Shown piece after piece: positions 31,040-58,703 of a stretch of 64,000 nucleotides of DNA. How positions within the stretch are numbered: the first letter of the stretch is position 1; every line of letters begins with the position of its first letter. Origin of the DNA: Cephalotus follicularis. Taxonomy: Eukaryota > Streptophyta > Magnoliopsida > Oxalidales > Cephalotaceae. The stretch spans positions 1 to 64,000 of the forward strand of contig BDDD01005093.1 in the NCBI GenBank assembly GCA_001972305.1, read 5' to 3'. A program made the translations under genes and the position numbers. The notes below the pieces were generated by a model, which was not told where the DNA came from, ran no database searches, and worked only from the letters and a program-made list of their open reading frames with translations.

Positions 31040-31200
31040 GATAAAAGCGTCGACGCCATAGATAATGCGTTGACGCCCACGAAGACAAAAGGCCCACGTA
31101 AACCATGCACATACACGTCAACGCTTGTTGATGACGTCGATGCCCTTTAGGCAAAACGCTATAAGCCTTGACGCCTCCATGTAAACGTCGACGCTTTGCG
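31040..31200 (+). repeat. TCGA-palindrome array 1 in 5' LTR B
   Basis: Units GCGTCGACGCC, GCGTTGACGCC, ACGTCAACGC, ACGTCGATGCC and ACGTCGACGCT lie 0.19-0.35 kb from the LTR start. Confidence 0.88.
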
Positions 31201-31970
31201 TCGTGGTTCTGGTATACATAAACAAAAGATAGACGTGGCGCACGGAAGGATATTCATGCCACTCTTCAAGCGCCCTCTCATACGTTTCATGACGTGTTGA
31301 TCATGTATTGAGATTCCCTCACTTACCTGGACTTGAAAGGCACTGAAGAGAGAAAGAATCTCTTAGTGCATGGCCTGTGAGGAGGAAGAATGCAACACTT
31401 GTTGCGTCAGGCTTGCATGAAGGAGATAGACTTGAACTGGTGGCATATGCAGATGAAACAAAGACGAAATCTGCATAAAAGTTGACCCTCTCACTTGTCT
31501 CTCAGTTCTTACTGATAGAAGAAGAAACCAGAGTCTGAGAGAGAGACAGGGAGTTAAAGAGAGCAGAAAAATTAGAGAGAGAGAAGCTCAAACTCCATTG
31601 TTGAGCAAGGGAGAACTTGGAGCTTGGACAACGACTGTGGAGCGAACCAGAGAGCTTTCAGGACGAACCTGGGGACTCAAATTGATTGATTGGATACTAA
31701 AAGAAGTGGACTTTCGGCTTCTAACTTGAGGACAGAGGTAGGGGAAGCCATAACTGTATTTTGTGTTCGATAATTGGTGTTTGTTCAGTGATGTTTATGC
31801 ATTGATTTCATGGCCTGTTGAAATGTTTTTTATCACTGAAATGATGCTATGTTATACTGGATGCGTAATATGATGTTGCATGTCGGTTTTCTGGGCTTTA
31901 TACATGTTGGATTGCATGTTATTATGGTGAAATATTTACTGGTTCGTCATATAGCGAGGAAGAAGACGAC

Positions 31971-32175
31971 TGACGCTCGAAAACGTCGACGCCTTTGGTA
32001 AGCGTTGACGCTTTGTACTATGAACTGTGTTTTATTTACTGAATGCGTTTTAAATGTCGACGCCTATGGGAGGAGACATCGACGCCTAAGCACTGGAAGC
32101 ATTGATGCTAAAGGATTGAACGTCGACGCTTAAAGGACATAAGCGTCGACACCTAAGTAAAAACGTCGACGCTTT
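31971..32175 (+). repeat. TCGA-palindrome array 2 in 5' LTR B
   Basis: About eight units spaced near 20-40 bp. Several form 14-16 bp palindromes such as TAAGCGTCGACGCTTA with minor variations. Distance 1.12-1.32 kb from the LTR start. Confidence 0.9.
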
Positions 32176-33457
32176 AGGGTCCTGTTTGGACAATTTTTAC
32201 GATTTTGACACCCGACAACCTCGATTTCACTTATGATACATTCGAGCATTTGTATGCATTGCATATGTACTGTTTACTGCCTGTTTATTGAATGTTTATA
32301 AATTGATTTTGATCTCTAAGTATTGTTATATTTGAAATGCATATACGAGTTGAAAGCTAATATGTTGAGTATGAAAATATAAAATTAGTATTATTATATT
32401 TTCAAACATATAAAGTATTTCTATCTACTGGAAATACATTTTTCAAATGTAATCACTTTCAAAAATGGTTTGAAATAATCTGCCTGTTGTTGATCTAACG
32501 ATCATTACTGTACTGTTTACTGTGACTATTTGCTATTTACTCTGTGGATTTTATGTGGTTATGCTTGAGCCACTAGTCGCATGGCAGAGACTACCAGTGC
32601 CGACTAGTGGCAGGGTTGACCTAGGAGTCAGGAGTTGGCTGGGTAACTCACTGTGTTGTACTGTTGTCTTGCTTGGTTGCCTAGAGTAGGGACCGAAGTG
32701 GGGGTGTAACGTGGGGCCAGGAGTTGGCGATGTTACACATACTGCCTGCCTGTTTGTGGTTTCTTTGTGGACTTACTGTACTGCCTGCTAGTCCTTCTCG
32801 GACATTACTGTTCCTGTTGATGTAGCCCTGGCCGGCCTACTACTGTACTGTTATTGCATACATATGTTTTCACATATATGTCCCTACTGTTACTTTACTG
32901 TACTGCTAACTTATATATATATATATATTTCCATATATATAAACTGGTATTTTCTACTGCACTGCATCATCTGCGCATACATTTCATGACATGCATGCAA
33001 GGTTGATCCCAAAGTACTCTTATGACTTAGCCGAGTGAGGACAAAGGCTAACCCCCTACTTTACAGATTGATGCAGTGGACCGGTTGGACTAGCTTGGAC
33101 AAAGAACAAGCCTTTATGTTATTGTTGTTGGTTTTATATTCTTCTGGATTGTAATAAACTGGTTTTGTTTTAAGGACTACTAATGTACCGTACTTTTGGC
33201 TTTGTTTACCGATGGGTTTTAATAATGTATTATGAATCACGCTCCGTTTACGAGCTTTTAACAATGACAAACTTGTATTGAGTAGCGTTCAGTATGGGAT
33301 GCACGTTACGTGTTTCAGCTTATGAGTTTAATGCTTTCGCAACTGATATTTTTATTTGAATAGTTTAATTTTTATGGTATTTACATAAGCTGAATCTTAA
33401 TGTTATTTGCCTTTACCACTTTATGTGTGTCTACCTAAAACCGGGGCATGACAGACA

Positions 33458-33470
33458 TGGTATCAGAGCA
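33458..33470 (+). other. Primer binding site of element B
   Basis: TGGTATCAGAGCA, complementary to initiator-Met tRNA, lies four bases after the 5' LTR. Confidence 0.95.
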
Positions 33471-33565
33471 TATTCCATATATGCTTAGCTAGGATATTTT
33501 CCTTGGCAATTAATGAATTGTTTTCCTAAAGTTATGACTAATAGTCATCCTTCTTATAGGAACCA

Positions 33566-34640
33566 ATGGACCGAAGGAGAACACGTGCTAGTGCTAGAGC
33601 TGTTGGAGCCAATGCCCCTGAAAAAGCGAATGTTTCGCAAGGGATGAATGTCCCCCCAGGATGAGAGAGATCCGATGACCCGAATTGCGGATTATTTTCA
33701 GCAACATATGGCCTTTAATATGGCTAATGCGGAGGAGATGCGCCAGTACTACACGCAAGCTCGGCCGCAACATAAAGCTTCTGACCACTGCCCGTGAGAG
33801 GATGGTAACCAGTTTGGGAGGGACATTGAAAGGTTCATGAGGCAGAATCTACCCAGTTTCTGGGGGGAACTTGATGCCACCGTTGCCGAGAGATGGCTGT
33901 AGGATTTGGAGAAAATCTTTGAAGTAATGGACTATACTGACAATCAAAAACTGAAGTTTGCTGTATACCGTATGTGGGGTGAGGCCACTCATTGGTGGGA
34001 GATGGTCAAAACAAAGTGGGAATCCCAAAGGCTTGACAGCACTTGGGGAAGATTCCGGACAGAGTTCTTGGAGACCTATTTTCCACAGATTGAACAAGAG
34101 TGACAGGAGATGGAGCTCTTGGAGTTGAGACAGGGGGAGATGACGGTGACAGAATATCTAGCAATGTTCATGGAGCTAGCCAGATATTCACCCTATATGG
34201 TAGCTGATGAAGTGAAGAAGATACGGAGATTCTTGAGAGGCCTGCGGCCGGATCTTCGATCAAGAATTAGAGCTATGGAACTGGGAACTTTTGTGGAAGT
34301 TGCTCAGAAAGGGAGACCACTGGAGAGTATATCCAGTGAAGACCGGGCTGAGAGAGCTCGCGCACAATAGAATAAATAGAGTCCTACACAATCCAGACCA
34401 GCATCGTCGAAATGGCAAGATGGTGGCTCTTCGACAAAGTCATCCAAGAGCAAATCTCAGCAGACAGCTTCACAGGGTTCTCCCAGCCAAGGTAGTAATG
34501 CTAGATCCGGGGGTTGTTACTATTGGGGTCGCATGGGACACCAACAGAAAGATTGCTGGAGGTTTAATAGCTGGTGCTGGAGGTGCGGGGCACCTGGTCA
34601 TTCGGTGAAAGACTGTCCAAAGAGTTCAGCTACAGCGCCT
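33566..34640 (+). pseudogene. gag: Element B gag
   Basis: The start at 33566 (MDRRRTRASARAVGAN) is followed by a frameshift near 33655. Further pieces are DYFQQHMAFNMANAEEMRQYY, then the capsid region (WWEMVKTKWESQRLDSTWGRF; LELRQGEMTVTEYLAMFMEL; KKIRRFLRGLRPDLRSRI). Two zinc knuckles lie at about 34516-34617: the first is damaged (CYYWGRMGHQQKDC, Cys to Trp), the second intact ([14 protein letters not shown]). Stops include TAG at about 33901 and TGA at about 34102, both consistent with C-to-T change. Pol is in another frame. Confidence 0.9.
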
Positions 34641-37600
34641 ACTGGGCAGGAAGTAGTAATGGTGCGGCAGCAGGACCGTCACAGAGGAAGGACACCGGTA
34701 AGGGCGTCGCAAAAGGTAGAGTTTTTGTACTTGCTCAGACAAAGGTTCTAGAGTCGACTTCCATTGTTGGAGGTACTCTGTATATATATGGTTTTTCTGC
34801 TAGAGTGTTGATCGATTCTAGAGCATCGCATTCTTTTATATCTGCACATTTTGCATCTTGTTTAGATGTCACCCCTAACTGCATGTCATATATGCTTGAT
34901 GTGAGTACACCGACTGGGACTTCTATGTACACTGACTCGATATATAGGAGTTGTGAGATGACCATGGAAGGCATTTCTTTGTGTGTAGATTTGATAGTAC
35001 TGCCTATCTGTGACTTCGATGTTATACTGGGGATAGATTGGCTATCAGCACACCGTGCTTGCGTGGATTGTTATAATAAAATTGTGGATTTTTGTCTACC
35101 CTTCGGAACGACATTCCAGTTCCAGGGAGACAAAGGGTTCTCAACACCGATCGTATCCTTTATTCAAGCATCGAAGTATTTAGAGAAGGGATGCAAGGGA
35201 TACCTGGCTTATGTAATTGATCGAAGGAAAGAAAAAGGTTTGAGCATGGAGGAGATTCTGGTTGTGTGTGAATTTTCGGACGTGTTTCCTGATGACTTGG
35301 GGCCTTTACCACCGAGGAGGAGTATGGAGTTCGTTATTGATCTTGTTCCTGGAACGGCTCCTATCTCTAAATCACCTTATCGGATGGCTCCTGCCGAGTT
35401 GCGAGAGCTGAAATTACAGTTACAAGACCTGGTTGATAAGGGTTTTGTTAGACCTAGTGTTTCTCTGTGGGGTGCGCCGGTGTTATTTTTCAAGAAGAAA
35501 GATGGGTCGATGAGGCTTTGTATCAACTACAGAATGTTGAACAAGGCAACTATCAAGAACAAGTATCCTTTACCCCACATCGAGGATTTGTTTGACCAGT
35601 TTCAAGGGTCAAGGGTGTTTTCCAAGCTCGATTTGAGATCGGGTTATCACCAATTGAGAGTAAGGGAGGGAGGCATTGAGAAGACTACCTTCCGGACACG
35701 GTATGGTCAGTACGAATTCTTGGTGAAGCCATTTGGTGTTACCAATGCACCAGCAACTTTCATGTCATTGATGAATGACGTATTCCGGCCATACCTGGAC
35801 CAGTTCATCATAGTGTTTATTGATGACATACTAGTATATTCAAGGAGTGAGGAGGACCACACTCATCATCTGAGGCTGGTATTGCAGGTTCTGAAACAGC
35901 ATCAGTTGTACGCCAAGTTCGGCAAGTGTGAGTTCTGGCTTGATCATGTGATCTTTCTCGGTCACATCGTATCTGGGGAAGGCTTGATGGTGGATTCGTC
36001 AAAGACTGAAGTGGTGCGAGACTGGCCACAACCGAAGAATGTGACAGAGGTACGTAGTTTTCTTGGCTTGGTGGGCTATTACAGGAGGTTTATCCAGAAC
36101 TTTTCAAGGATAGTCGTGCCCTTGACTAGACTAACCCAGAAGAAGACCTTATTTGTCTGGGACGAAGATTGTGAAGCTAGTTTCCGTGAACTGAAGGATC
36201 GGTTAGTTTCCGCTCCTATCTTGGCATTACCTGATGGTAATGAGGGCTTCGCAGTCTACAGTGATGCATCAGGTAAGGGCTTGGGCTGCGTGCTGATGCA
36301 GCAAGGAAGAGTGATCGCTTATGCTTCCAGGAAGCTAAAGCTGTATGAAGAAAACTACCCGACACATGACCTTGAACTTGCAGCTATTATCTTTTCCCTT
36401 CAGAAGTGGAGGCACTATCTTTATGCGGCGCAGTTTGAGATCTTTATAGATCATAAGAGTTTGAGGTACCTGTTTTGTCAAGATACACTGAACATGATGC
36501 AACGAATATGGGTAGAATTCTTTAACGATTATGATTGCAGTGTTGAGTACCACCCGGGGAAAGCGAATGTGGTCGCTGATGCCTTGAGTCGCAAGGTTAT
36601 GTTTGCCAGTGCGATGGTGTCGCAATGGAAGATGTTAGAAGATTTCCAAGAGTGGTTTCCGTTTAATCAGTCACCTGGAGTCTTTATGGCTAGCATGAGA
36701 GTACAGCCAGTTATGCTTGACGAAATAAATAACGCTCAAGCACACGATCCTGAATTGCAAAAGATTCGAGACAATTTGGACTCGGAGTCTGGTTGTCGGG
36801 TACATGCCGATGCTGTCTAAAGATTTCGGGGACGGGTATGTCTTCCAAATGAGCATGGGTTGAAGAATAAGTTGCTTTACGGGGCTCATAGATCTCAGTA
36901 TAGCATTCACCCTGGTAGCACAAAAATGTACCAAGACATGAAGAGGGATTACTGGTGGCCTCGCATGAAACGAGAGATCACCGAGGATGTGGCAAGGTGT
37001 TTAACTTGCCAGACAGTCAAGGCCAAGCACCAGAGACCGGCAGGGTTGCTACAGCCTTTACCAATTCTAGAGTGGAAGTGGGAGCATGTTACGATGGATT
37101 TTGTTTCCGATTTTCCTCTAACTCAGAAACGTCACAACGCCGTGTGGGTTGTCGTGGATAGACTCACCAAATCAGCGCACTTTCTTCCTACACTCGTTAC
37201 TGATTCTGCGAGCAAGCTAGCTCGTTTGTATGTGAAGGAGATAGTGAGGCTACACGGTGTTCCCGTCAGTATTGTATGTGATAAAGATGCCATCTTCACT
37301 TCCAACTTTTGGAAGAGATTTTAGACAGCTTTCGGGACAAAGCTGAACCTGAGTACTGCCTTTCACCCTCAGACCGATGGGCAGTCTGAGCATACCATCC
37401 AGACCTTGGAGGATATGTTATGGCTTGCATTATTGACTTTGCTGGTACATGGGAGGATCACATTCCTTTGATAGAGTTCTCTTATAATAACAACTATCAT
37501 TCCAGTATCGGCATGGCACCGTTTGAAGCACTGTATGGGAGGAAGTGCAGATCTCCTGTTTGTTGGGATGAGGTCGGGGAGCGACCTTTACTCGGGACTG

Positions 37601-38133
37601 AGTTAGTGGAGGAAACTTCAGAAAAGATTAGGATGATTAAAGGGAAGCTGCTTGCTGCTCAGAGCCGGCAGAAGAGCTATGTGGACAGTGTCAAGAGGAG
37701 GCCTTTGACCTTCAATGTTGGTGATCATGTTTTCTTAAAGGTTTCACCATGGAAGGGCGTGCAAAGGTTTGGGAAAAAGGGCAAATTAGCTCCACGCTAT
37801 ATTGGTCCTTTTGAGATTTTGGAGAGAGTTGGGGAGGTAGCCTACCAGCTTGCCTTACCTCCTGCACTGTCAAACGTACATGATGTCTTTCATGTGTCTA
37901 TGCTGAGGAGATATATCCCGGACCCGTCACATGTCCTGGATTATTAGGCTGTTCCTGTACGAGATGACATATCTTGTGAGGAGTTGCGTGTACAGATTCT
38001 AGACTGGAAGACGCAGATTTTGAGGAACCGAACCATCTCCATGGTCAAGGTTCAATAGCAGTTCCACCGATCGGATGAAGCCACTTGGGAACGTGAGGAT
38101 GATATCCGAGAATGTTACCCACATTTATTTTAG
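34641..38133 (+). pseudogene. pol: Element B pol: protease, RT, RNase H, integrase, chromodomain
   Basis: Open to 36820, then broken. Protease reads [13 protein letters not shown]: the DSG triad has become DSR, so it is expected to be inactive. RT has [10 protein letters not shown] and an intact FIDDILVYS dyad. RNase H has [22 protein letters not shown] and ADALSRK. Integrase has [37 protein letters not shown] and DGQSEHTIQ. A TAG stop near 37322, a frameshift near 37410, a GPF module, a TAG near 37946, and a chromodomain (RSDEATWEREDDIRE) with another stop near 38056 follow. The frame ends at 38131-38133. Tekay lineage by similarity to element A. Confidence 0.93.
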
Positions 38134-38164
38134 TGTTGTTTTAATTTCGAGGATGAAATTTCTC

Positions 38165-38178
38165 GAAGGAGGGGTGGA
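38165..38178 (+). other. Polypurine tract of element B
   Basis: GAAGGAGGGGTGGA abuts the 3' LTR start. Confidence 0.9.
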
Positions 38179-38370
38179 TATAACACCCGAGATTTTCGTC
38201 TTGTAATATTTCAATTTGAAATGTAACCTTATCGTGGAATTAATAAGGATAATGAAATTCCCGATTTTGATGATGTTTTCCGAACTCTAATGATGTTGAT
38301 TTTGGAGTAGAAATGCAAAAGAATGTTAAAAGTGCAATTTGGAGGCAAAATGGCACAATACTGGGATAAA

Positions 38371-38525
38371 AACGTCGACGCCTTAGATAAAGCATCGACG
38401 CCTACGAAGACAAAGGGCGCACATAAACCATGCACATGTACGTCGATGCTTGTTGATGGCGTCGACGCCCTTTAGGCAAAAAGCTATAAGCGTCGACGCC
38501 TGTATGTAAACGTCGACGCTTTGCG
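38371..38525 (+). repeat. TCGA-palindrome array 1 in 3' LTR B
   Basis: ACGTCGACGCC, GCATCGACGCC, ACGTCGATGC, GCGTCGACGCC and related units, 0.19-0.35 kb from the LTR start. Confidence 0.88.
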
Positions 38526-39294
38526 TCGTGGTTCTGGCATACATAAACAGCAGATAGACGTGGAGCACGAAAGCTTATTAATGCCACTCTTCAAGCACCC
38601 TCACATGCGTTTCATGACGTGTTGATCATGCAATGAGATTCCCTGACTTACCAGGACTTGAAAGGCAATGAAGAGAGAAAGAAACACTGAGTGCATGGCC
38701 TGTGAGGAGGAAGAATGCTACACCTGTTGCGTCAGGCTTGCATGAAGGAGAGAGACTTTAACTTGTGGCATATGCAGATGAAACAAAGATGAAATCTGCA
38801 TAAAATTTGACCCCCTCACCTTCCTCTCAGTTGTTACTGATAGAGAAGAAACTAGAGTCTGACAGAGAGACAGAGAGTGAAAGAGAGCAGAAAAATTAGA
38901 GAGAGAGAAGCTCAAACTCCATTGTTGAGAAAGGGAGAACTTGGAGCTTGGACAACGACTGTGGAGCGAACCAGAGAGCTTTCAGGCCAAGCCTGGGAAC
39001 TCAAAGTGACTGATTGGATACTAAAAGAAGTGGACTTTTGGCTTCTAACTTGAGGCCAGAGGTAGGGGAAGCCATAATTGTATTTTGTGTTCAATAATTG
39101 GTGTTTGTTCAGTGATGTTTATGCATGGATTTCATGGCCTGTTGAACTGATTTTGATCACTGAAATGATTCTGTGTTATACTGGATGTGTAATATGATGT
39201 TGCATGTCGGTTTTCTGGGCTTTAAACATGTTGGATTGCATGTTATTGTGGTGAAATTGTTATTGGTTTGTCATATCGAGAGGAAGAAGACGAC

Positions 39295-39500
39295 TGACGC
39301 TCGAAAATGTCGACGCCTTTGGTAAGCATCGATGCTTTGTACTGTGAACTGCGTTTTATTCACTGAATGCGTTTTAAATGTCGATGCCTATGGGAGGAGA
39401 CATCGACGCCTAAGCACTGGAATCGCTGACGCTAAAGGACTGAACGTCGACGCTTAGAGGACATAAGCGTCGACGCCTAAGTAAAAACGTCGACGCTTTA
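39295..39500 (+). repeat. TCGA-palindrome array 2 in 3' LTR B
   Basis: About eight units, 1.12-1.32 kb from the LTR start, unit for unit matching 31971-32175 with transitions at CG positions. Confidence 0.9.
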
Positions 39501-40271
39501 GGGTCCTGTTTGGACAGTTTTTACGATTTTGACACCCGACAACCCCGATTTCGCTTAGGATACATTCGAGATTTGTATGCATTGCATATGTACTGTTTAC
39601 TGCATGTTTATAGACTGTTTATAAATTGATTTGATCTCTAAGTATTGTTATATTAGAAATGCATATACGAGTTGAAAACTAATATGTTGAGTACGAAAAT
39701 ATAAAATGAGTATTATTATATTTTCAAACATCTTGGGAAAGCGATTTCCACTACTGAACTGTTTAAAGTATTTCTATCTACTGGAAATACATATTTCAAA
39801 TGTAATCACTTTCGAAAATGGTTTGAAATAAACAGCCTGTTGTTGATCTAACGATCATTATTGTACTGTTTACTGCCCTTTTTACTGTGACTATTCGCTG
39901 TTTTCTCTGTGGATTTTATGTGGTTGAGCTTGAGCCACTAGTCGCATGGCGGAGACTACCAGTGCCGATTAGTGGCAGGGTTGACCTAGGAGCCAAGAGT
40001 TGGCTGGGTAACTCACTGTACTGTACTGTTGTCTTGCTTGGTTGCTTGGAGTAGAGACTGAAGTGGGGGTGTAACGTGGGGCCAGGAGTTGGCGGCGTTA
40101 CACATACTGCCTGCCTGTTTGTGGTCTCTTTGTGGGCTTACTGTACTGCCTGCAAGTCTTTCTCGAACATTACTGTTCCTGTTGATGTAGCCCTGGCTGG
40201 GCTACTACTGTACTGTTATTGCATACATATATTTTAACATATATGTCCCTACTGTTACTTTACTGTATATA

Positions 40272-40302
<31 letters not shown>

Positions 40303-40802
40303 AACTGGTATTTTCTACTGTACTGCATCATCTACGCATACATTTCATGACATGCATGCAAGGTTGATCCCAAAGTACTCTTATGACTTAGTCAAGTGAG
40401 GACAAAGGCTAACCCCCTATTTTACAGATTGATGCAGTGGACCGGTTGGACTAGCTTGGACGAAGAACAATCCTTTATGTTATTGTTGTTCGTTTTATAT
40501 TCTTCTGGATTGTAATAATATGGTTTTGTTTTAAGGACTACTGATGTGCCGTACTTTTGGCTTTGTTTAACGATGGGTTTATCAATCACGCTCATTTTAT
40601 GGGCTTTTAACAATGACAGACTTGTATTGAGTAGCGTGCAGTATGGGATGTACGTTACGTGCTTCAGCTTATGAGTTTAATGCTTCCGCAACTGATATTT
40701 TTATTTGAAAATTTTAATTTTTATGGTATTTACAGAAGATGAATCTTAATGTTATTTGTCTTTACCACTTTATGTGTGTCTACCTGAAACCGGGGCGTGA
40801 CA

Positions 40803-41184
40803 CACACCGCTATGTGGAACTCAGGAAGCCTATTGCTTCCTATTGGGTATCGGAATATATCTCTCTGTATCATGGTCTCAGCTGTTGGCATGAACCACCA
40901 CAATATCAAGATAGGTAGACACGAGTGTCAATTTACATAAAGACATCTTGTCCTTCATGTAAGATCCGATACTATATTCGGCCTGTCGGCCCTTATGGCC
41001 TCAGCTGTGGGCATGACTACAGCCATAAGATCTTGATATAAGTCAGACCCATAATCCTTAAAGAAATTAACCCGTTTTGATCCCCACAACTGAGCTTGTC
41101 AGAGTACCAAAACATGGTCATTTCCTTCCAGTGCACCTCACACTGAAATTGAATAGAAATGGTCATACGGAAGACCTCTACTGT
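40803..41184 (-). other. Probable leader of copia G with constant-loop hairpins
   Basis: Two copies of a loop motif (sense, minus strand: TCATGCCCACAGCTGAGG and a variant) each sit between different inverted repeats. One pairs CTTATGGC with GCCATAAG (arms 40992-40999, 41032-41039). The other pairs TATTGTGG with CCATGATA (arms 40898-40905, 40868-40875) using two G.U pairs that exist only on the minus strand. No coding sequence is seen. Assignment to copia G rests on position and orientation. Confidence 0.55.
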
Positions 41185-44100: not shown

Positions 44101-44445
44101 CACCGACGCCGGTGACAGGAGCTGAGTGGGGAGAGAGAACGGGAGAGAGGGTGGCGGGAGAGAAAGTGTGGGAGAGAGAAAGAGAAATTTAATATAAAAT
44201 AGGGTTTTTGAAAGTTTTAAATGCTGAAATGGGTTTTAACACATAAATAAAAAGCCAAAAATTATTTTATTTATTCATTGACTTAATATCAAAACCCACT
44301 AGGCTTAGGCCAAAACCCGCTTAGCCTAGCCAAAAGCAAAACAAACCGAAAAATGGGCAGTCCACAAACCGAAAAAAAAATCGACAGCCCACACGAAACA
44401 AATCGAAAAGCCCGAAAATTCTATACGGAAAAACGGGATATTACA
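41185..44445 (-). mobile_element. Solo LTR I (A-type), minus strand
   Basis: The plus strand reads TGTAACACCCCCGATTCGG ... GGGATATTACA, 3261 bp, between perfect ACTGT duplications (41180-41184, 44446-44450). It shares the hairpin-rich domain of LTR A (about 42100-42335). It lacks a clear TCGA array; the equivalent position carries degenerate tandem repeats (42650-43295). A GC-rich block (43690-44140) lies near the LTR 5' side. ORFs there are not supported as genes. Confidence 0.94.
42650..43295 (-). repeat. Degenerate 60-70 bp tandem repeats in solo LTR I
   Basis: Repeating blocks of AAAATCAGATAGCC / ATCCGTAC / AAAGTGAAACTGG. The last two copies form a 69 bp direct tandem duplication (43158-43226 and 43227-43295) that is essentially exact. 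LTR A has about one copy of the underlying sequence. Confidence 0.85.
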
Positions 44446-44450
44446 ACTGT

Positions 44451-47169: not shown

Positions 47170-47370
47170 TGGAGGAAGGCGTCGACTAAAACATAGCATA
47201 ACACAGTGGAAAGCGTCGACGCTCAAGGAAAGGCGTCTATGGTTTAGGCATAAGTGTCGACGGGTAACAAAACATTCGACGTTTATGACCCCATACACAA
47301 CAATAAAATGGTTTACAATGCACAGGCATCAACGCTCACGGTATAGGCGTTGATGCTTAACGTCAAAAAC
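47170..47370 (-). repeat. TCGA-palindrome array 2 in solo LTR J
   Basis: GGCGTCGACT, AGCGTCGACGC, AGTGTCGACGG, GGCATCAACGC and GGCGTTGATGC, 1.03-1.23 kb from the LTR 5' end at 48402. Confidence 0.85.
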
Positions 47371-48119
47371 ATGAATCCCGGTTTTTATATTAGTTCAAAA
47401 CCATGCACAAAACCCCAATTTCTTAAACACGAGTTATAAACAACAATATGCAGGCTATGAAATATGGCTTATAAGTTTGTAAACGTCAGTATATACATAT
47501 ATCAATGCATGATCATATACAATATATATTAACAACTTTTAGAAAATATATTTTTCTGATACATAGTAGTTTGCATGAATCATGAACTACAATATGATTT
47601 TCTTTGCATAAATCATAAAACAGTGGTATGTACAAGTTTTATAACATGGTTTCCTTGCTTGAAATATTAGTATAACAAATTAAACTTGTATGTACATGGA
47701 TAAAAGATTGGAACCTAACAGCATAAATTTTCTTTCAATACAGGTTCTAAAATCATGATCAAAAAAATTCTTAGCATGTTTTAGTTTAAACTAATGTTTG
47801 ATAGTAAAACTACATAGTGAAAACTACAAGTTTCATTTAGAAAGTACCTTCAAAAGACGCCAAAGCGATGAGGAACAAAGTGTCAAAGTTGCTGCTCTGG
47901 TTTTGACAAAAATATGCATATGGTTTCTAAAGAATGCAGTGATCAGTTTTAAAAACAAGGAAAACGTGTAAAACTAATAACAAAATCGTGTGACTAAATG
48001 ACTTTCCTTTCATGCAGATACGAGTCCAATCAAAGAAGGAAAATCGGATAAACAAAAATGGCAAGAATGCTTTCAAAAATTCATGCCACCGTCCAAAACA
48101 GATAAGGAAGAAAGGCTTT

Positions 48120-48280
48120 AAGCGTAGACGTTATAACAAAGCGTTGACACTTAATCCCTTTTCACAAAGCGTCGACATCAAAACAAGGCGTCGACGTTTT
48201 CAATACTGTGAACAAAACGACAAAACTACAACGCTAAGGTGTCGACCCTTAGAACAAAGGCGTCGGCGCTTAATGCCCAG
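48120..48280 (-). repeat. TCGA-palindrome array 1 in solo LTR J
   Basis: AGCGTAGACG, AGCGTTGACAC, AGCGTCGACA, GGCGTCGACG, GGTGTCGACC and GGCGTCGGCGC, 0.12-0.28 kb from the LTR 5' end. Confidence 0.85.
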
Positions 48281-48413
48281 AACAAAACAAAAGCAAGGAA
48301 TTTTCAAAATAAATCCAACGGTCAAAATAACATAGCATATAACAAAAGACATAAACACAACATATAACGATAAACACGTAAGCATAGAAACGGGATATTA
48401 CACCACTAGACAT

Positions 48414-48612
48414 TGTTCACGAATTTTGAATGTTTTAAATTTATACCACAAGTACACGGTTGTCCAGTAATGGGTCGAACGCTAGGAAACAAGCTAAATC
48501 AATTTTAATTTATCCAACCTATGCGAAGTATGCAAAATTGAGGGCTATTATAAAAAACTACTCTAAAACATGCAAAAATAAACTAATTATTAAAACAGTA
48601 GACAAAGGCTCA
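48414..48612 (-). repeat. Residual 3' LTR of element K (199 bp)
   Basis: It matches 56855-57054 closely and then switches straight to pol sequence. The junction carries GGCTCATGTAGGTC, which recurs at 48650, suggesting a deletion through short homology. The missing part would include most of the LTR, the polypurine tract and any env-like region. Confidence 0.85.
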
Positions 48613-48627
48613 TGTAGGTCTAAGCGA

Positions 48628-50278
48628 TCAAGGTGGCTCAAAATAGAGAGGCTCATGTAGGTCCATGGCCTCTTCCATCGATGCGGCCGTAAACTCGACA
48701 AACCTCTTCAACCGCTGCCCGTTCACCTTGAAAGCATCTTCAATTCCTGGCTTACAAATCTCAAAAACACCATGTGAGTAAACAGTTTTAACAATATAGG
48801 GAACATCCCAACAAGATCTCAGTTTTTCAGGAAACACGTGTAAACGGGAATTATACAAAAGCACTTTGTCTCCTACTTTGAAATTTTTCCTTAGAATATG
48901 CGCATCATGAAAGGCTTTGGTCTTTTCTTTTGAAATATTAGTATTGTCGTATGCATCATTCTAGATCTCTTCCAACTCAAATAATTGGAGAGAACGATGA
49001 CTACCCACAGTGGAACGATCAAAATTAAATTGCTTAATGGCCCAAAGGCCTGATGTTCCAATTCCACTGGAAGATGACGCGCTTTACCGTACACAAGCTA
49101 GTAAGGAGATTGACCAAGGTCAGTCTTGAAGGCTGTCCAATAAGCCCAAAGAGCATCCACAAGTCGAGTGGACCAATCCTTTCTACTGGGGTTGACTATT
49201 TTTTTTTTAGAATTTGCTTAATTTGGTGATTGGATACCTCCACTTGCCGGCTAGTTTGAGGATCGTATGGTGTAGCGAGTTTGTGAGTGATCCCATATCT
49301 TTTCATAAGGGCTTCAAAGGAACGATTGTAAAAATGGGTACCATTATCACTAATGATGGCACGTGGGGTGCCAAACCAAGAAAAGATATGTTCCTTGAGC
49401 AACTTGACAACCACAGAATTGTCATTAGTTCGATAAGGAATCGCCTCAATCCACTTTGAAACATAGTCAACAGCCAACAAGATGTATAAATTCCCAAACA
49501 AGCTGGGAAACGGACCCATGAAATCGATTTCCCAAACATCAAAAATCTCAACTATCAAAATCGGAGTTAATGGCATCATATTCCTCTTAGTCACATGGCC
49601 TAATGATTAACAAGACGCACAAGTTTGACAGTACTGAAAAGCATCTTTGAAAATTGTCGACCAATAAAAACCACATTGTAAAACTTTGGCTGCTGTCTTT
49701 GCTGGGACAAAACGGCCACCACATGTGTGATCATGGCAAAACGAAAGAATAGAATGACATTCATGATCCGGAACGCACCTTCGCATAATTTGGTCGGGAC
49801 ACGCTTTGAAAAGATAATGGTCATCCCAGTAAAAGTGTTTGACTTGCGCAAGAAACATACGCTTATCTTGAGCAGACCACTTCAACGGTATGATCCCCGT
49901 AACAAGATAATTAACTATGTCCGCATACCTTGGTTCGCTCTCGACATGCATAATCTGCTCATCAAGAAAATTCTCATTAATAGGACCCCTGATCTCTGGC
50001 ATATTAGGGAGATAGGATAAATGATCAGCCGATAAATTCTCAGTCCCTTTCTTATCTCTAATTTCCACGTCAAACTCTTAAAGTAGCAAAACCCAACGGA
50101 TGAGACGTGCTTTTGTATCATTTTTGCTCACTATGTATTGAATCACAGCATGATCAGTATAAACAATGACGTGGGATCCTAGTAAGTACGCCCGAAATTT
50201 TTCAAGTGCAAAGACCATAGCTAAAAACTACTTCTCAGTGGTCATGTAATTTAATTACGCATCGGAAAGAGTCCTACT
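48628..50278 (-). pseudogene. pol: Element K pol, downstream part: RNase H end and integrase
   Basis: From right to left: the RNase H end with [10 protein letters not shown] near 50140-50160; the linker RDKKGTENLSADHLSYLP; the integrase zinc region (HTCGGRF ... CQTCASC); the core (WEIDFMGPFP, ISDNGTHFYNRSFEALMKRY, PQTSRQVEVSNHQIK), with the DDE residues recognisable; and a C-terminal domain (LLYNSRLHVFPEKLRSCW, FKVNGQRLKRF) ending at the stop at 48628-48630. Stops lie at about 50080 and 49608, and a frameshift in the 48890-49200 stretch. The PQTS.QVEVSN motif is typical of Athila. Confidence 0.9.
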
Positions 50279-51440
50279 TGTAGCGCCCCCGACCCGAGTC
50301 CACTTTATGCTCAAAGTGAGCTCCCAAGATCGGTGCATTACGTGGGGGCAACCTTTGACCGTCAAATCATTTAACCATTTAACGATCCATTTCATATCAT
50401 TTAATCTTAGCTTAGATTTAAAACCTAACATTATTACTCAATAACTCACAGGATCGCATACGCTTACATCTTTGAACACCAATTTCAAAATGTCATATTC
50501 TCATTATCATGATCGTTTCTAATACCTTTGCATTTGTACATTACTTAACATGTAACCTTACACAGCGGAAAAACATAATCTTATCACATCATAAAACAAT
50601 CATATACTAGCCTTTACCATTAACATCTCATACACTCAAGTATGTTCACTAACTTTTGATATCATCATCTTACATAAAAACATCATAACCTTTAGCATTC
50701 ATTACCTTGCTTTAACATCTATACATCGTTTATCATAAAATATTACACAGCGGAAAATATAAACATATGACATTAAAACATAACTTCATAGCATATCATA
50801 CTTTCTTTCCTTACTCTTCTTTCGCGAACTTCCACTAAAGCTCACAACTTCTCGTTCAACGTTTCCTGGAAGATTTATTTGAAAAACAAGACATTGAAAG
50901 GAGTGAGCTTTAAAGAACTAAGTAAGAAACATAGTCATAAAACGTTATCAAAATCTGTTATTTTTGATAATCTTTATCAAAACGTTTCCAGTTCATACAT
51001 TTCAAACATCGTTGAAAAACTTCTTCTAGTTTTTCAAAACCAGAGCATTGTACTATCGAAATCAATTTTTTTGGATAACTTTCATAAAATCGGAACATTT
51101 CTAAAATCATGCATTTTCTGGTGTATAACACTGGCATACTTGAAAACAATCAAAAACGTTTTCCAATCATACTTTCTTTTGGCTTGTATCACAGCCATAC
51201 TTGAAAACATCAGTAAAATCATTTTCTTCACATTCATAAACAAAACATCTTTAAAACTCTTTCTCTGTTCATATCTCAAGAAACAGAACATTTCATAAAA
51301 CTTAATGGCCGTGAACCTCTAATGAACCCTTTCACACCGCTTCACCGGGGCATTGTGCACTCCCCGATTACTATCCTTACATCACATGCATGTCCGTGAG
51401 CACGCTCGGCTCCATTAACTTTGAGCATCTCACTCCATTT

Positions 51441-51792
51441 CCCTTGGATCGTAATCCAAGGGTGGTTCATTCATTAATCTTTTAATAGATTAATCCTCAC
51501 TGGATCGCAATCCAGTAGTTGTTCATTCATTTCATAAAACATTTCTTATACTTTGAGTGATTAACTCAAATGCATTCATAAAACATTTCTCTTCATTTGA
51601 GTACTTAACTCAAATGCATTCATAAAACATTTCATAAAATCTTTCTTAATACCTTGAGTGATCAGCTCAAAGCATTCATAAAACATCATTATAAAACATT
51701 TTTTGAAACTGGTTTTCCATATAAAAACCTTCATTTCATTTCCTTTCACAATTCATAAAACATTTCTCATCACTTTGAGTAATTAACTCAAA
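51441..51792 (-). repeat. Array of short perfect hairpins in solo LTR M
   Basis: Seven inverted repeats with different stems and 4-7 nt spacers: CCCTTGGAT (51441), ATTAATCT (51473), ACTGGAT (51499), TTTGAGT (51552), ATTTGAGT (51595), TTGAG (51654) and TTTGAGT (51774), each followed by its complement. They are separated by CATTCATAAAACATTTC-like sequence. Confidence 0.88.
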
Positions 51793-52544
51793 AATCTTTA
51801 GAAAACAGTTTTGTATAACTTTTCTAAAATAGATATTTCGTATAGAAATAATCACTGTCAAAGAAAACTTAAAACATAAAAGTTAAAGTAGACATCTCAA
51901 TGAATCTATCGAGATAAAAATCATAAAATTTCATTGAGAAACGAAGCTGGGATGAATTTTTAAAGTTGCAGTTTCCTTTTGAAAATAGGACCTGAGCAGT
52001 GGAAGAAAACATGGCCTTTCATCAAGAATTCGATAGAATTTTGAGATTCATAAAACATGATAGTTAAAGTACACATCTTGAAGTTTTCAAAACATTAAAC
52101 CATTCAAGATTTCATAAAGAAATGAGCATGATATCAATAAAACTATCTGCTGCATAATTTGGAAGTAAAACAGATGAAACTTTGGTGAAAATGGGTATAG
52201 AATCTCCTTACCTCACTTGATCTCCTTCTCTTCTTCTCTCCCAAGCATCCTCCTCTCTAATCTCAGTAGAAAACCAACCCTTCATCAGCTGAATTTGCAC
52301 ATACATATATAGGAGAGGCAAACTTGGCGGTCAAGCTTGCATGGTGTCATCCATGACCTCACCCATGTGAGCTTGCCTCCTTAGCAGCCCATGTGATGGA
52401 ATTCCATCCAATCCAATGATGCCACCTGCCCTTTTCCAGCAGAAAAACATAAGTCTTCCATCCCTTGCTTGACACATGTCCTAGAATCCATTTAAATCCT
52501 CCGAAACGGGATAAAAAGCTAGAATTCTGCACCTGACACAGGGC

Positions 52545-52770
52545 AAATCGTCGACTCTTTATCACTAAGCGTCGCCGGTCACGGGCTTATACTAAGTTCT
52601 CCAACTTCTATCATGACTAAAGTGCTGACGCTTTCCTACAAAGCATCGCCGCTTTAAGTCTCCTCCAGGTCAACCTCAATACTTGATTTCAAAGCGTCGA
52701 AGCTTACATTTGGAGCGTCGCCGATTGCCTCCAAAGCGTTGACTCTTTACCTGGAACCATCGGCGCTTTA
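52545..52770 (-). repeat. GTCG-type motif array in solo LTR M
   Basis: TCGTCGACTC, AGCGTCGCCGG, GTGCTGACGC, GCATCGCCGC, GCGTCGAAGC, GCGTCGCCG, GCGTTGACTC and CATCGGCGC, 0.23-0.46 kb from the LTR 5' end. Less palindromic than the other arrays. Confidence 0.75.
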
Positions 52771-52814
52771 GACATTTCCAGCACAAAGCAATAACCAATT
52801 TCCATTTTCTTCCG

Positions 52815-52910
52815 GGGGTGCTGCCCCTGAGCCCCTTCCCGCTGTCCGGGCAGCGGGACCCCCTGTCCGCTCACCGGGGAGCGGAACCCCCGAACCCCCC
52901 GAGCGTAGGG
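52815..52910 (-). repeat. GC-rich double hairpin in solo LTR M
   Basis: CCCGCTG (52838-52844) pairs with CAGCGGG (52851-52857), and TCCGCTC (52866-52872) with GAGCGGA (52879-52885), each with a 6 nt loop. G runs on the minus strand could also form a quadruplex. Confidence 0.8.
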
Positions 52911-53008
52911 TCATACTACGGGTCCCTTGAAATATTTGCCAATTATACAATAGCAAATATCTTTCCATAATTAATATCTTTAATGGAAATTTGGGTCATT
53001 ACACTACT

Positions 53009-55093
53009 TGCATAGTAAATGACATGAGATAATTTATTCAGCCTTCGCCCGAGAACATCTCCTGTCGTACTATCAGATGCATCGCACACAATCTCAAATA
53101 GCTCAGTCCAGATGGATGCCTGAACGATAGGAGCAGAGGTGAGCACTTTATTTAAGTGATCAAAAGCATATCCGCACTAGTAAGAGAAAACAAATTCTTG
53201 ATCTTTTGCTAGGAGCAATGTCAAGGGTCGTGCCACCTTGATAAAATCCTTGATGAACCTTCGATAAAAACCAGCATGTCCGAGGAATGCTCGAATGTCT
53301 TTCACATTTTGAGGTGGAGGAAAATGTTTGATGACTTCGATTTCAGCCTTATCGACTTGAATTCCCTCTTTTGACACTACATGTTTGAGAATGATCCCCT
53401 TCTTCACCAAGAAATTGCACTTCTCCCAATTAATCCCCAAATTCTTCTCCCTACTTCTTTTGAGTACTAATTTCAGATGATGAAAGCATTTAGAGAACGT
53501 GGAACCATGCATAGAGAATTCATCCATAATCACCTCAAGGAAGTCCTCCATAATATCAGAGAAAATACTCATCATACACCTTCAGAAAGTCGCGGGGGCA
53601 TTGCAAAGGCCAAATGGCATGCGTCGATGAGCAAATGTTCCAAAAGGGCATATGAAATTAGTTTTCTCTTGATCTTTCAGAGCGATGGGAATTTGATTAT
53701 ACCCGGAGTACCCATCAAGAAAGTAGTAATATTCGTGGCCAGCCAATTTATCCAACATTTGATCGATAAACGGTAGAGGAAAACGATCGTTCCAGGTGGC
53801 TGTATTCAACTTGCGATAGTCGATGCATACCCTACATCCAATTTGTACCTTAGTCATAATCAAGTCATTGGTGGACGATTACACTACCGTCACTCCGGAT
53901 TTCTTCAGAACTACGTGGGCTAGACTAACCTATTGACTATCCGATATGGGATAAATGATCCCATTGTCCAACCACTTCAAAATTTCTTTTTGTATGGCTT
54001 CTTTCATCACAGGATTGGCCTTTATTTGAGGTTCTCTAGAAGGTTTGGATCCTTCTATGAGATTTATATGATGCTCGCAAGTAGAAGGGTTGATTCCCTT
54101 GATGTTAGCCATAGTCCAACCAATTGCCTCTCTATTTTCTTTGAGTAGGTGAATAACCTCCTCTTCCTGACGGGGAGTAAGATCAGATGAGAGAATAACA
54201 GGATGAGTTTTGTTTTCACCTAAGAATGAATATTTCAGAGTAGAGGGAAATTCCTTTAATTGATGTTTTGGAGGTTCTTCTATTGATGGCTTAGGTAAAG
54301 ATGTAGACAAGGGGCCCACTGGTTTTAAGGTTTGCATACTAAACACATCAAAGAAATCTCCTCCTTCTACATCCTCTAATTTCTGCATACACTCACTAAA
54401 ATTTCCATCAAAATCAATGTCAAAGACCGTATCAATGTGGTCAGGAATTGAATGGATTGTGTTCGCTTCATGAAAATCAGCGGAATGCTTACCTATGCGG
54501 AAGACGTTAAAATTCACTAACGTGTTTCCGAAACTCAACTTCATCAGACCATTGCAAAAATTGATTAAAGCATTACTCATCACTATGAATGGTCTCCCAA
54601 GGATAACTGGGATTTGATCATTGATATTTGCAACAGGCTCGGTATCCAATATGACAAAGTCGGCAGGAAAGAAAAACTCACTAATCTTGATTAAAACATC
54701 CTAAATTTTTCCTCGTGGCACTTTCACAGACCTATCCGCTAATTCCAAAGTCATCGTGGTCGGGCTCAACTCTCCTAAACCAAGCTTTTCGTAAACCGAT
54801 GATGGAAACACATTCACACTTGCTCCAAAATCGAGCAGAGCGTGTTCTATTTTTGTGTTGCCAATGACACAATGGAATTTTGATTTGGACTTGTTTAAAT
54901 GTTTCAATAATCTTTTCAGTTGTTGGGGTTTTCTTATTTTTCTCCAATCTCTTTGGAAAAGGAACTGGCTGATCATATGAACGCGCGAGTACCGCCGCTG
55001 GTAGTTCCTTCTTCTCATCCTCTTCTTCTTTCCTAGATTCTTTGTGTGCGCTTGAATTTGTTGGTTATGAAAAGGAGTCAACCAAATGCTCAT
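53009..55093 (-). pseudogene. pol: Element K protease, RT and start of RNase H
   Basis: Right to left: protease with LLDFGASVNVFPSSVYEKLG at about 54780-54840, where the usual DSG/DLG triad is DFG; the linker ILGRPFIVMSNALINF; RT with RVCIDYRKLNTAT, DGYSGYNQI and MPFGLCNAPATF; then VIMDEFSMHG at about 53505-53535, where the usual DD dyad has become DE. RNase H opens with VCDASD and is cut at 53009 by solo LTR M. Stops and frame changes near 53577, 53866-53929 and 54700 disable it. Confidence 0.9.
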
Positions 55094-56580
55094 TTAAATT
55101 TTCTTGTGTCAAGGACTCATCCAAATGCTCGCTCACATTTTCTATTTGATCCACTGGTTGGTACTCATTTCCACTCCTTAGGACAAAAACCTGTTTAGAT
55201 GGGCCCGAGGAGGAATAAGAAACTTGCGAATTAGATGTCGGTTGGTTATGAGCGGATGGTTCATGGCCGACCTTGGATTCGGGTCTGGCTGGGAAGGCAT
55301 TTTGCCTTTCTCACTTTCATGTATAGCTGAGGCAAGCTGTGAGATATTCTTCTCCATGTTATGTTGACTAGTCATCACACTGCTCATGAGAAGCTCCATG
55401 CTCTTTTCTAGCGAGGAAATCCTAGAAGTGTTTTCCCTTTGGTTCAACGATCCAGGTGATTTTTTATTTTGAAACTGGTTTTGCGGTAGGAAGGATGGTC
55501 GGACATTGTTTGAATTTGGGGGAAACAGGAAACCTTTGGAAGGTCTGCTGAGGTACAGACTGGCTAGTGAAGCTAGAAGGCTGCCTATAAAATTTACAGG
55601 TCCTCTTTGATTTTGCCCTTGACTCCATGAGAAGTTTGGATGATTTTGCCAACTTGGATTGTAAGTGTTACTATACGGGTTGTATTGATTCATTGCAGAC
55701 ACATTCTTAGGAGAATACTGATTGTCTTAATAATTCGGGCATTCTTTAAAAACATGACTTGGTGACTGGTATAAAGAACACATAGGGGTGCTTTGATCGA
55801 TGTGATTTACTTGGGCGAAACCCCTAACTATAGACTCCAATCTCATGGGGAGGCTGTCTAACTGTGCCTCCTTAGCCACTACCCCTTTTATGGCGTACCC
55901 CTTACTCGGTAAAGCTCTTCCATAAACTTGAGTGGACTCCCACTCGCTAGTTCACTCACCCAAATCTAAAAGGAAATTCCAAGCCTCATTTTCATCTGTA
56001 TACAAGGTGAACCCATCAGAACACATGGACTCGACTAATTGCTTGGTCTGGTAGTCGATGCCTTCATAGATGATTTGGCATAAATGCCAAGTGTTCAAAC
56101 CATGATGCGGACACTCTAAGGGGAGGTCTTTAAAATGTTCCATACATCGAGAGCATGATTCATTGCGTCTTTGGCGAAACTGAAAAATGTCGCTCCTAAG
56201 CTTATTGGTTTTATGAAGTGGAAAGAATTTCTTTAGGAATGAAACAGTGAAATGATCCCATGTAGAAATGGAACCATTGGGAAAACTATAGAGCCACTTC
56301 TTAGCTCCATCTTTCAGAGAAAAGTTTATGAATCACAACTTAATAACATCATCAGACAATTGCTGGAGTTTCATGAGGGCACATACCTCCTTGAACTCAT
56401 GAAGGAAGAGATATGCATCCTCATTGGGTAATCCGTGAAAGTGTGGCAGCATGCTAATAAATTTGGATTTCAACTCAAAATTGTTCCTTTGAGGTGCAGG
56501 CAACAGGATACAGGATGGTTGCGCTGTCTTGCAGGATAGAATCTATCGCGCAGAGTTTGTATGGGTTGTCTGTCCGCCAT
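55094..56580 (-). pseudogene. gag: Element K gag (Athila-like)
   Basis: The start at 56580 gives MADRQPIQTLRDRFYPARQR. After a frameshift come FHGLPNEDAYLFLHEFKEVC, WLYSFPNGSISTWDHF and the Athila signature ECPHHGLNTWHLCQIIYEG (about 56070-56125). A zinc-knuckle relic CSLYQSPSHVFKEC (about 55740-55785) has its second Cys replaced by Tyr, and the region MNQYNPYSNTYNPSWQNHPN opens at 55700. Gag would assemble the particle; several stops prevent it here. Confidence 0.88.
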
Positions 56581-56830
56581 TGGTGCTTGTTGATGGTTAA
56601 TTCTTTCGAGACAATGGTTTGGACCACGCACCCAATCAGTCATAAACTAACAGCAAGGCAAACCACTAATGAACGTAAAGCACACACTAAACAGAAGACA
56701 CTAAGTTAAATATGATTATCACAAATTAAAGGAAAAGAACACAAAATATTATTATTTTTAAATTAATTAATTAAACTAAACTAAATACTACGAATCAGTT
56801 GAATAAATTAAAACTAATCTAAAAAGTTGC

Positions 56831-56848
56831 TTCCCCGACAACGGCGCC
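56831..56848 (-). other. Primer binding site of element K (Asp-tRNA type)
   Basis: The minus strand reads TGGCGCCGTTGTCGGGGA, one base off the usual Athila primer site, six bases from the LTR border. Confidence 0.93.
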
Positions 56849-57049
56849 AAAAACATGTTCCCGAATTCTGAATGTTTTAAATTTATACCGAAAGTGCACG
56901 GTTGTGTAGTAACGGGTCGAATGCTAGGAAACAAGCTAAATCAATTTTAATTTATCCAACCTAGGCGAAGTATGCAAAATTGAGGGCTATTATAAAAAAA
57001 ACTACTCTAAAACATGCAAAAATAAACTAATTATTAAAACAGCAGACAA

Positions 57050-57155
57050 AGGCATCGACGTGAATAATTGAAAGCACAGAAAGCGTTGACAGAAGGCATC
57101 GATGAAAATTGATGAAAACACTTAAAGCGTCGACGCTTACAGGGTAGGCGTCGAC
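57050..57155 (-). repeat. TCGA-palindrome array 2 in LTR K
   Basis: GGCATCGACG, AGCGTTGACA, GGCATCGATG, AGCGTCGACGC and GGCGTCGACGG, about 1.24-1.34 kb from the proposed LTR 5' end. Confidence 0.85.
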
Positions 57156-57884
57156 GGTTACGGGTACTGGTGCAAAACTTAACAAAAATAAAACATGCAA
57201 ATCAAAGCAGAGAATAAACTGAATAAAGTATGCAAATTAAAATCGGTTTTAGGGTATAGAAACTCACCATAGATTATATTGAATAACTCACATATTTTAT
57301 TGCTCAAACCTCGGTAACCAACGAGAGCTAGGTCAATACAGAGTGTGACTGTGATGACAAATCATATGAGTAGTCATGCTAGGTCTATACGAAGTGTGGC
57401 AGTGGTGACAAATCGTATGAGTGGACATGCTAGGTCAATACAGAGTGTGTACGGCGTGACAAACCGTATGAGTAGACTCCATTGATTGCATTAAAAACCA
57501 TTCACTCAACAACATTCTTATTCACCGACAAAGTGTTTGTGGATTTTAATCAGACAGACAAAGTGTTTATGAAGGCATAAAATTGAAGAACAAATCAAAG
57601 GTTCAAGGATTTTATTAATTGAGTTGTATCAATACAATCTAATGCCCTGTTCTAGCCCTAAAAACCTTAAAAAGTTAGCTACAAAACATTGAAAAAACTG
57701 CTAGAGAAAGAAAAGAGAAAACAGCTGGGAAATTATACTCCTATTTTTGTTGTCTCTCTCTTCCTTTTATACTTACAATCATGGATAAAAATGGAAATAA
57801 AACTTAACCTAATTAATCTACAAAAGGAAAATTATTACAATCCAAAGAAAACATTAAAAACTTTCCAATTTTCCTACCAGGCCC

Positions 57885-58190
57885 ATCGTAGGCGTCGACT
57901 CTGATCTTCTGGGCATCGACGGTTTGATATGCAAAAGATCTGAGATGCGCGATTTTCAGTGTTATGTGTCGACTTGAATATTTAGCAAAGTAGCGTTAAG
58001 CGTCGACGCTATCGATCAAGGAGTCGACGGTTTTGATAAAGCGCTGACACTGTATTTAAAGACGTCGACGCTTAAAGTGTGTAATTCAATTGTTAAACTC
58101 TGTACCAAAGCCTTGACGCTTTTATATTAACTGTTGGAGCTTTGCGTCAAGGCGTCGACGCTAATGTTGAAGGCATCGACGCTTTGCTCT
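57885..58190 (-). repeat. TCGA-palindrome array 1 in LTR K
   Basis: About ten units: GGCGTCGACT, GGCATCGACGG, GTGTCGACTT, AGCGTCGACGC, GGAGTCGACGG, AGCGCTGACAC, GACGTCGACGC, GCCTTGACGC, GGCGTCGACGC and GGCATCGACGC, about 0.2-0.5 kb from the proposed LTR 5' end. Confidence 0.88.

Positions 58191-58658: not shown

Positions 58659-58703
<45 letters not shown>

Follow-up and report, generated by a model that had tools for sequence, protein, structure and literature searches.

Arrays of a GTCGAC-cored palindrome in long terminal repeats of gypsy and copia retrotransposons of one plant genome: candidate binding sites for dimeric DNA-binding proteins

The stretch analysed here, 64,000 bp of Cephalotus follicularis DNA (contig BDDD01005093.1; hereafter the window), is plant nuclear DNA that consists mainly of nested long terminal repeat (LTR) retrotransposons, and the assembly from which it comes amounts to 1,577,397,061 bases (1.58 Gb). 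Many of its LTRs carry arrays of a short dyad-symmetric site with a constant core, GTCGAC, and three main classes of flank (GC-, CA- and AC-GTCGAC-), and the window holds 55 exact TCGA-centred palindromes of at least 8 bp. A first-pass annotation of the sequence had described palindromes with a TCGA core, set in unrelated spacers of 20–45 bp, at two fixed positions in LTRs of unrelated lineages. The palindromes were confirmed, with a core that proved longer than TCGA, and the spacers are indeed nearly unrelated, although the usual core-to-core spacing is 20–22 bp. Coordinates of the arrays and of the LTRs that carry them are collected in Table 1.

Table 1. Palindrome arrays and their carrier LTRs in the window (positions in bp from the first base of the window).
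Feature	Position	Strand	Remarks
LTR A, second-position array	3172..3338	+	CA class, 8 sites; LTR start 2027
Solo LTR D	3767..6508	-	nested in LTR A
D, array 1	6186..6338	-	AC class, 4 tolerant sites and an exact palindrome at 6321-6338
D, array 2	5110..5414	-	AC and GC classes, 7 sites
Element C, one LTR, single array	10264..10368	-	3 sites; orientation by primer site 13382 minus
Element C, other LTR, single array	15394..15498	-	3 sites; orientation by primer site 13382 minus
LTR F, decayed array 1	26657..26860	-	4 sites; orientation by primer site 24386 minus
LTR F, remains of array 2	25669..25872	-	two single sites, at 25669 and 25861
B, 5' LTR	30853..33452	+	primer site 33458
B, 5' LTR, array 1	31046..31195	+	mainly GC class, 5 sites
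B, 5' LTR, array 2	31982..32173	+	mainly GC class, 7 sites
B, 3' LTR (38179-40802), array 1	38371..38520	+	6 sites
B, 3' LTR, array 2	39306..39497	+	5 sites
Solo LTR J, array 1	48121..48270	-	GC class, 6 sites
Solo LTR J, array 2	47212..47264	-	GC class, 2 tolerant sites
Decayed array inside K, between RT-like and integrase-like parts	52547..52746	-	5 tolerant sites, two groups
K (Athila-like), 5' LTR	56853..58395	-	start from single LTR copy
K LTR, array 1	57891..58183	-	GC class, 7 sites
K LTR, array 2	57051..57158	-	3 sites
LTR A2	58901..61683	+	
LTR A2, second-position array	60057..60265	+	CA class, 8 sites

The arrays are carried by chromovirus-type Ty3/gypsy elements (A and B), by the distant Athila-like element K and, outside the window, by a Ty1/copia family, F0. 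Domain matches were obtained to protease, reverse transcriptase (RT), RNaseH and the zinc-binding part of integrase in B, and to RNaseH and integrase in A, and the two are 51–58% identical in protein sequence. A chromodomain is present in about 20 of the best 120 of 8,000 scored homologues of the A pol, whereas A's own frame gave no chromodomain match, so that A is probably, on the strength of these homologues, of chromovirus type. The best named homologues of the A pol among the matches listed are mostly from Asteraceae, plus Apium and others. K lies much further away, with an RT-like region 33.7% identical to that of B and an integrase-like region 25.7% identical to that of A; its primer site is of the type that we take to be tRNA-Asp, and site type and distance together fit Athila or its relatives, so that the name is provisional. 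F0 elements have a copia-type gag (Retrotran_gag_2, 3.3e-22; gag_pre-integrs, 2.7e-12) and the primer site TGGTATCAGAGC.

A tolerant site was defined as GTCGAC with at most one mismatch, in a 12-mer agreeing with one of the three class strings at no fewer than 9 places, and an array as at least three such sites with gaps of at most 95 bp. By these definitions the window contains 93 sites, against a mean of 14.2 (maximum 26) in 200 dinucleotide shuffles, and 14 arrays, against none in any of the 200. The observation is real, and wider in extent than had first been claimed. Most sites (84 of 93) fall inside approximate LTR intervals, which cover 28,158 of the 64,000 bp. A 200-kb comparison tract (C1:1.2–1.4 Mb), chosen for containing one match of a genome-wide search for GC-class pairs, gave 199 sites where 34.4 were expected (maximum 51) and 25 arrays where 0.02 were expected (maximum 1; 60 shuffles). 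Because the three class strings were picked after the sites had been seen, more weight falls on a choice-free comparison of all 64 palindromic hexamers, among which GTCGAC is the most over-represented both in the window (59 versus 6.3) and in the C1 tract (96 versus 15.1).

Symmetry extends beyond the core. Among 155 GTCGAC sites from the window and the C1 tract, reduced to 101 once sites with similar flanks were removed, 32 have symmetric 2-bp flanks, compared with 14.9 when right flanks are shuffled (maximum 26 in 5,000 shuffles). GC/GC accounts for 16 of the 101, CA/TG for 8 and AC/GT for 5, and the most frequent asymmetric combination, AC/GC, for 8. The arrays of A and A2 belong to a different flank class, CA (CAGTCGACTG). 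In the copia alignment, both LTRs of one C1 element show AAAGACGTCGATGTCTTT-like sites where other copies show AAAGCGTCGACGCCTTT-like sites, the two sides of the palindrome changing together. Elements with two arrays mostly keep one flank class across both, with the exceptions that array 2 of D mixes AC and GC, and that isolated AC-type matches occur among the GC sites of B and F0.

The pattern extends to the whole genome, in which triplets of GTCGAC with 10–40 bp between neighbours number 101,716, compared with 478 for the backwards pattern CAGCTG. Pairs are most numerous at 20–22 bp core to core (166,339; control 1,742), fall to 5,964 at 25–27 bp (control 241), 7,931 at 30–32 bp (control 146) and 964 at 35–37 bp (control 153), and rise again at 41–43 bp (75,674; control 702) and 46–48 bp (17,231; control 291), the last two classes taking in next-but-one neighbours and all genome counts being heavily weighted by abundant families. 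ACCGGT, a palindrome of equal base composition that also has a central CpG, forms only 146 pairs at 20–22 bp. Of 104 sampled pairs of neighbours, 76 are 20–22 bp apart and 14 are 27–29 bp apart. The GC-class pair, AAGCGTCGACGCTT followed 5–35 bp on by GCGTCGACGC, has 1,335 occurrences on one strand and 1,352 on the other, versus 2 and 2 for its control. Loci from the genome search came via this GC-class pattern, so to speak a sample and not a census of families, and five overlapping loci were removed beforehand. The resulting set of 83 arrays includes four duplicates from overlaps (L002, in the C1 tract; L009/L010, two arrays; L019/L020), leaving 79 distinct; the duplicates are retained in the raw spacing list and in the comparison of spacer identity. 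The set comprises 14 flank families, F0 being the largest with 29 of the 83 arrays (26 of the 79).

Strict helical phasing of sites on one face of the DNA was considered and rejected. When 129 non-redundant spacings were submitted to a Rayleigh test, periods of 10.25–10.5 bp came out as favoured (p 2.8e-8 and 4.5e-8), mainly from the 21-bp peak; for spacings above 26 bp the helical period gives a p of about 0.002, and a period of 21 does better (p 1.1e-5). What we retain is a preference for 20–22 bp and a scarcity at 35–37 bp. In the CA-class arrays of several families (for example 3172–3338 in the window), a gap of 27–29 bp recurs among the 21-bp gaps, in the order 21-28-21.

Re-measured from the LTR 5' end, arrays 1 and 2 lie at 194–343 and 1130–1321 in B, at 194–323 and 1095–1399 in D and, with starts taken from single copies, at 133–282 and 1139–1191 in J and at 213–505 and 1238–1345 in K. 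A and A2 have an array at the second position only (1146–1312 and about 1157–1365). All these distances agree with the first-pass annotation, which had also placed arrays in C and F: arrays are present in both, but C has one per LTR and not two, and those of F are decayed to four sites and two single sites. The two fixed positions hold for the gypsy LTRs of the window and fail in copia F0. There the LTR is about 2.23 kb long, as judged from alignment onset across many copies and from the primer site, and the arrays are at 1289–1463 and 2550–2679, the second about 0.3 kb past the LTR end and beyond the primer site. In the copia copy of the C1 tract the second array comes after the first LTR and not after the last; a 531-residue frame that matches gag, zinc-knuckle and pre-integrase domains (L035, 5118–6713) lies in this copy between LTRs about 2.6 kb apart, and the copy is therefore internally deleted. 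Because of the copia layout, equal distances from the LTR start cannot be taken as a general rule. Less variable is the separation of the two arrays, 0.9–1.3 kb: among 60 array clusters from the genome triplet search, most of them from few families, 10 of 59 neighbours are 0.95–1.38 kb apart, versus 1.24 under uniform placement (maximum 7 in 20,000 trials), and none of the 59 distances is 0.3–0.9 kb.

Between the two arrays lies a TATA-like string, at 621 in B, 628 in D and 625 in K, in each case one picked among several per LTR, so placed that array 1 is upstream of it and array 2 downstream. In B, D, F0 and L109 the interval that separates the two arrays holds donor-like strings, and in A2 such strings precede the array; with the strings used, none was found in K, J or C. 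Acceptor-like strings, read by eye, follow closer to the end of the LTR in B and in A. Taken together, the donor-like and acceptor-like strings suggest that array 2 may be intronic in some elements.

Conservation was compared over units of site plus spacer in pairwise alignments, with sites defined from each sequence in turn and with bootstrap intervals. Cores exceed spacers in A2/A (0.97 and 0.91 versus 0.72 and 0.70), in A2/C1:158856 (0.96 and 0.94 versus 0.76 and 0.75) and in B5/D (0.65 and 0.71 versus 0.49 and 0.49), with intervals that exclude 0. Sites thus outlast spacers clearly in family A and in B versus D, and weakly elsewhere. The two LTRs of B show no such protection (core 0.87 and 0.88, spacer 0.90 and 0.90). 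Cores kept while elements multiply, and unprotected after insertion, are the pattern expected from selection on the moving element.

We propose that the clustered sites of the arrays are bound by one or a few dimeric DNA-binding proteins, which probably belong to the host, and that convergence has kept such clusters, a reading to which we give about an even chance of being correct. The dyad form of the site, the symmetry of the differences between classes, a spacing of roughly two helical turns and placement around the probable promoter together point to a dimeric protein. There would be either one such sequence-specific protein or a few paralogues with different half-site preferences, corresponding to the GC, CA and AC classes. 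Cluster 1 would lie upstream of the probable LTR promoter and cluster 2 a further 0.9–1.3 kb on, in the 5' untranslated or an intron-like part, and the protein, once bound, would serve as an enhancer flanking the promoter or hold the promoter open. One factor, probably a host protein, would be within reach of every lineage, and for that reason separate lineages would have gained and kept the clusters. That three lineages share only short stretches of sequence argues for convergence on a commonly usable factor, and hence for a protein that is probably the host's. The first-pass annotation had offered module exchange, convergence, or a common RNA or chromatin function; convergence fits best, and neither a recent tract shared by K and B nor RNA structure beyond the palindromes was seen.

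Several observations weigh against this proposal. Three flank classes make one single protein less likely. Spacings of 27–28 bp and the 17,231 pairs at 46–48 bp do not fit strict phasing on one helical face, and the probable promoter is located by TATA-like strings selected from several per LTR. Array 1 is absent from C and A. Core protection is also uneven: for B5/L011 (core 0.86 and 0.69, spacer 0.60 and 0.57) the second interval includes 0, for B5/L021 (core 0.67 and 0.61, spacer 0.53 and 0.52) both intervals do, and in the copia comparisons L010/L024 and L010/C1b the differences between core and spacer are 0.07 to 0.12, with one of the two intervals including 0 in each.

Of the other explanations, the first is that palindrome-rich hairpin hot spots feed small-RNA silencing, as has been proposed for maize Sireviruses, and persist since silencing tempers the element. 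In maize Sireviruses, palindrome-rich LTR regions are small-RNA mapping hot spots (PMC5311732). Compared with full shuffles, the arrays do have more stable folds (mean z -4.57, n=10). However, the sites themselves explain nearly all of that stability, as no structure beyond the palindromes was seen when sites were kept in the shuffles (mean z -0.56, n=10), and a hairpin role predicts neither a preferred spacing nor diverged spacers. We consider it unlikely.

Scarcely less probable is that one ancestral array module moved between lineages by recombination or template switching and diverged later. The same core and a similar layout in unrelated LTRs of the window speak for such exchange, as do relatives like J and A2, which share LTR 3' parts and yet differ in array class. 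On the other hand, the LTRs of K, B, A2 and F0 have only stretches of 30–87 bp in common, with no other alignable tract. The common stretch of K and B, 37 bp inside the arrays, does not amount to the single recent recombination tract that the first-pass annotation had named as a possible refutation. Three symmetric classes, and spacers that are unrelated between families (identity 0.34), likewise speak against exchange, although an old exchange followed by turnover of the spacers would be compatible with these observations.

Lower again we place an anti-silencing DNA-binding protein encoded by the elements themselves, which would read the arrays and open the elements in the manner of VANC from VANDAL transposons. 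VANC motifs likewise form family-specific non-coding arrays that change in step (PMC5735166), and here a change of class involves both arrays of the same element, D providing exceptions. The internal part of B, however, when scanned for open reading frames (ORFs) of at least 150 amino acids, yielded nothing but pieces of pol, so that among unbroken frames of this length the copy reveals no factor of its own. The copia copy of the C1 tract shows gag to pre-integrase only, and a single family's protein would need to serve three lineages.

That the palindromes act at the RNA level, perhaps by helping the genomic transcript to dimerise or to be packaged, seems improbable. The sites are self-complementary as RNA, and array 2 is probably in the leader, in copia past the primer site, but the gypsy array 1 lies upstream of the probable promoter and folds reveal no structure beyond the sites. 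Neutral minisatellites arising by slippage would account for the tandem order and the dominant 21-bp period, but are very unlikely given nearly unrelated spacers within arrays (identity 0.42, versus 0.34 between families), cores kept in some comparisons and the same core in three lineages. The lack of spacer structure in the folds and the near-unrelatedness of spacers mean that an RNA fold and recent slippage both explain the arrays poorly.

More tentatively, and with rather less confidence than in dimeric binding itself, we can picture one host DNA-binding family as a common control point. Copia, chromovirus-type and Athila-like elements would each have evolved arrays of its site on either side of their promoters, and subfamilies would have switched class in both arrays as paralogues diverged, leading to the roughly hundred thousand triplets of the genome.

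Some further features were recorded. Within K, a stretch of about 2.7 kb (window 50300–53000) separates the RT-like from the integrase-like part and contains the decayed array together with a tandem repeat of about 100 bp near 51528–51828. A2 is flanked by runs of a short repeat unit with 'gaattc' and 'ggtgaacc' (58795–58900 and 61684–61960), and the 5 bp at its two ends are nearly alike (attcc, attct), which points to a solo LTR bounded by a target-site duplication. At 58578–58772 a GA run is bordered on each side by a copy of a 78-bp repeat (97% identity). At 27993–29061 there is an inverted repeat with 370-nt arms, 92% complementary and 329 nt apart, which overlaps an open frame of 164 amino acids (28274–28768). 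In public viral contigs, 58 stretches have a AGTCGACT pair, which we take as chance; one of them, L057 (476–848), stands out with five such pairs within 400 bp.

Repeated enhancer boxes are familiar from single LTR families, such as the BII boxes of Tnt1 and the heat elements of ONSEN, a class marked by boxes that a factor binds and that drive transcription. The present arrays resemble them as repeated boxes in LTRs for which factor binding is predicted, and differ in that one core extends over two superfamilies at very high copy number. The VANC motif of VANDAL DNA transposons, YAGTATTAY, is directional and is read by an element-encoded protein (PMC5735166); loss of DNA methylation caused by this protein is a mark of that anti-silencing system. 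Short family-specific arrays in non-coding parts, changing in step, are common to both systems, but the site described here is palindromic and common to several lineages, and no element-encoded reader was found among ORFs of at least 150 amino acids in B. Tandem arrays between pol and the 3' LTR are the subject of the Retand paper (PMC11963269).

The closest precedent is found in the LTRs of Sireviruses (Ty1/copia), which carry palindromic repeated motif (RM) boxes. According to Bousios et al. 2010 (PMC2829016), RM boxes begin 200–400 bp into the LTR, clustered in its upper half and upstream of TATA, are high-copy (at least 8 per element) with diverged flanks, and have no known binder; additional boxes lie upstream of env, and clusters border CpG islands. 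A CGG-CCG core is present in all but Tnd-1 of the 13 boxes listed there, the boxes are reported as Sirevirus-specific and absent from the classic copia elements examined in that study, and the Vitis box, CGGTCGACCG, includes GTCGAC. The first-pass statement that no description of such a module was known is therefore too strong. Like RM boxes, the arrays consist of a dyad-symmetric repeated motif, with at least 8 copies per element and diverged flanks (8 sites each in A2 and J, 10 in K, 11 in D and 12 in B, an outlying B match at 2221 being left out). They depart from RM boxes in two traits that define the latter, the CGG-CCG core and the Sirevirus carrier: they have GTCGAC flanked mainly by GC, CA or AC, and their carriers A, B and K are gypsy-type, F0 being copia as assigned at superfamily level only. 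A second downstream array and a 20–22 bp spacing are further differences. Within the library searched, neither the exact motif nor the topic led to a report of GTCGAC arrays in LTRs of gypsy elements; of 126 papers that matched the exact motif, none of the 25 listed deals with transposons to judge by its title. What appears to be new is the occurrence in gypsy elements, the second array downstream, one core across superfamilies, the spacing and the scale. Palindromic LTR boxes have been described as a Sirevirus feature with no known binder. The recurrence of one core in copia and gypsy LTRs of a single plant, together with the symmetry of the sites and their partial conservation, makes it directly testable what reads such boxes. 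If the reader is a host protein, it would serve as a common switch for a large share of the transposons in this 1.58-Gb genome.

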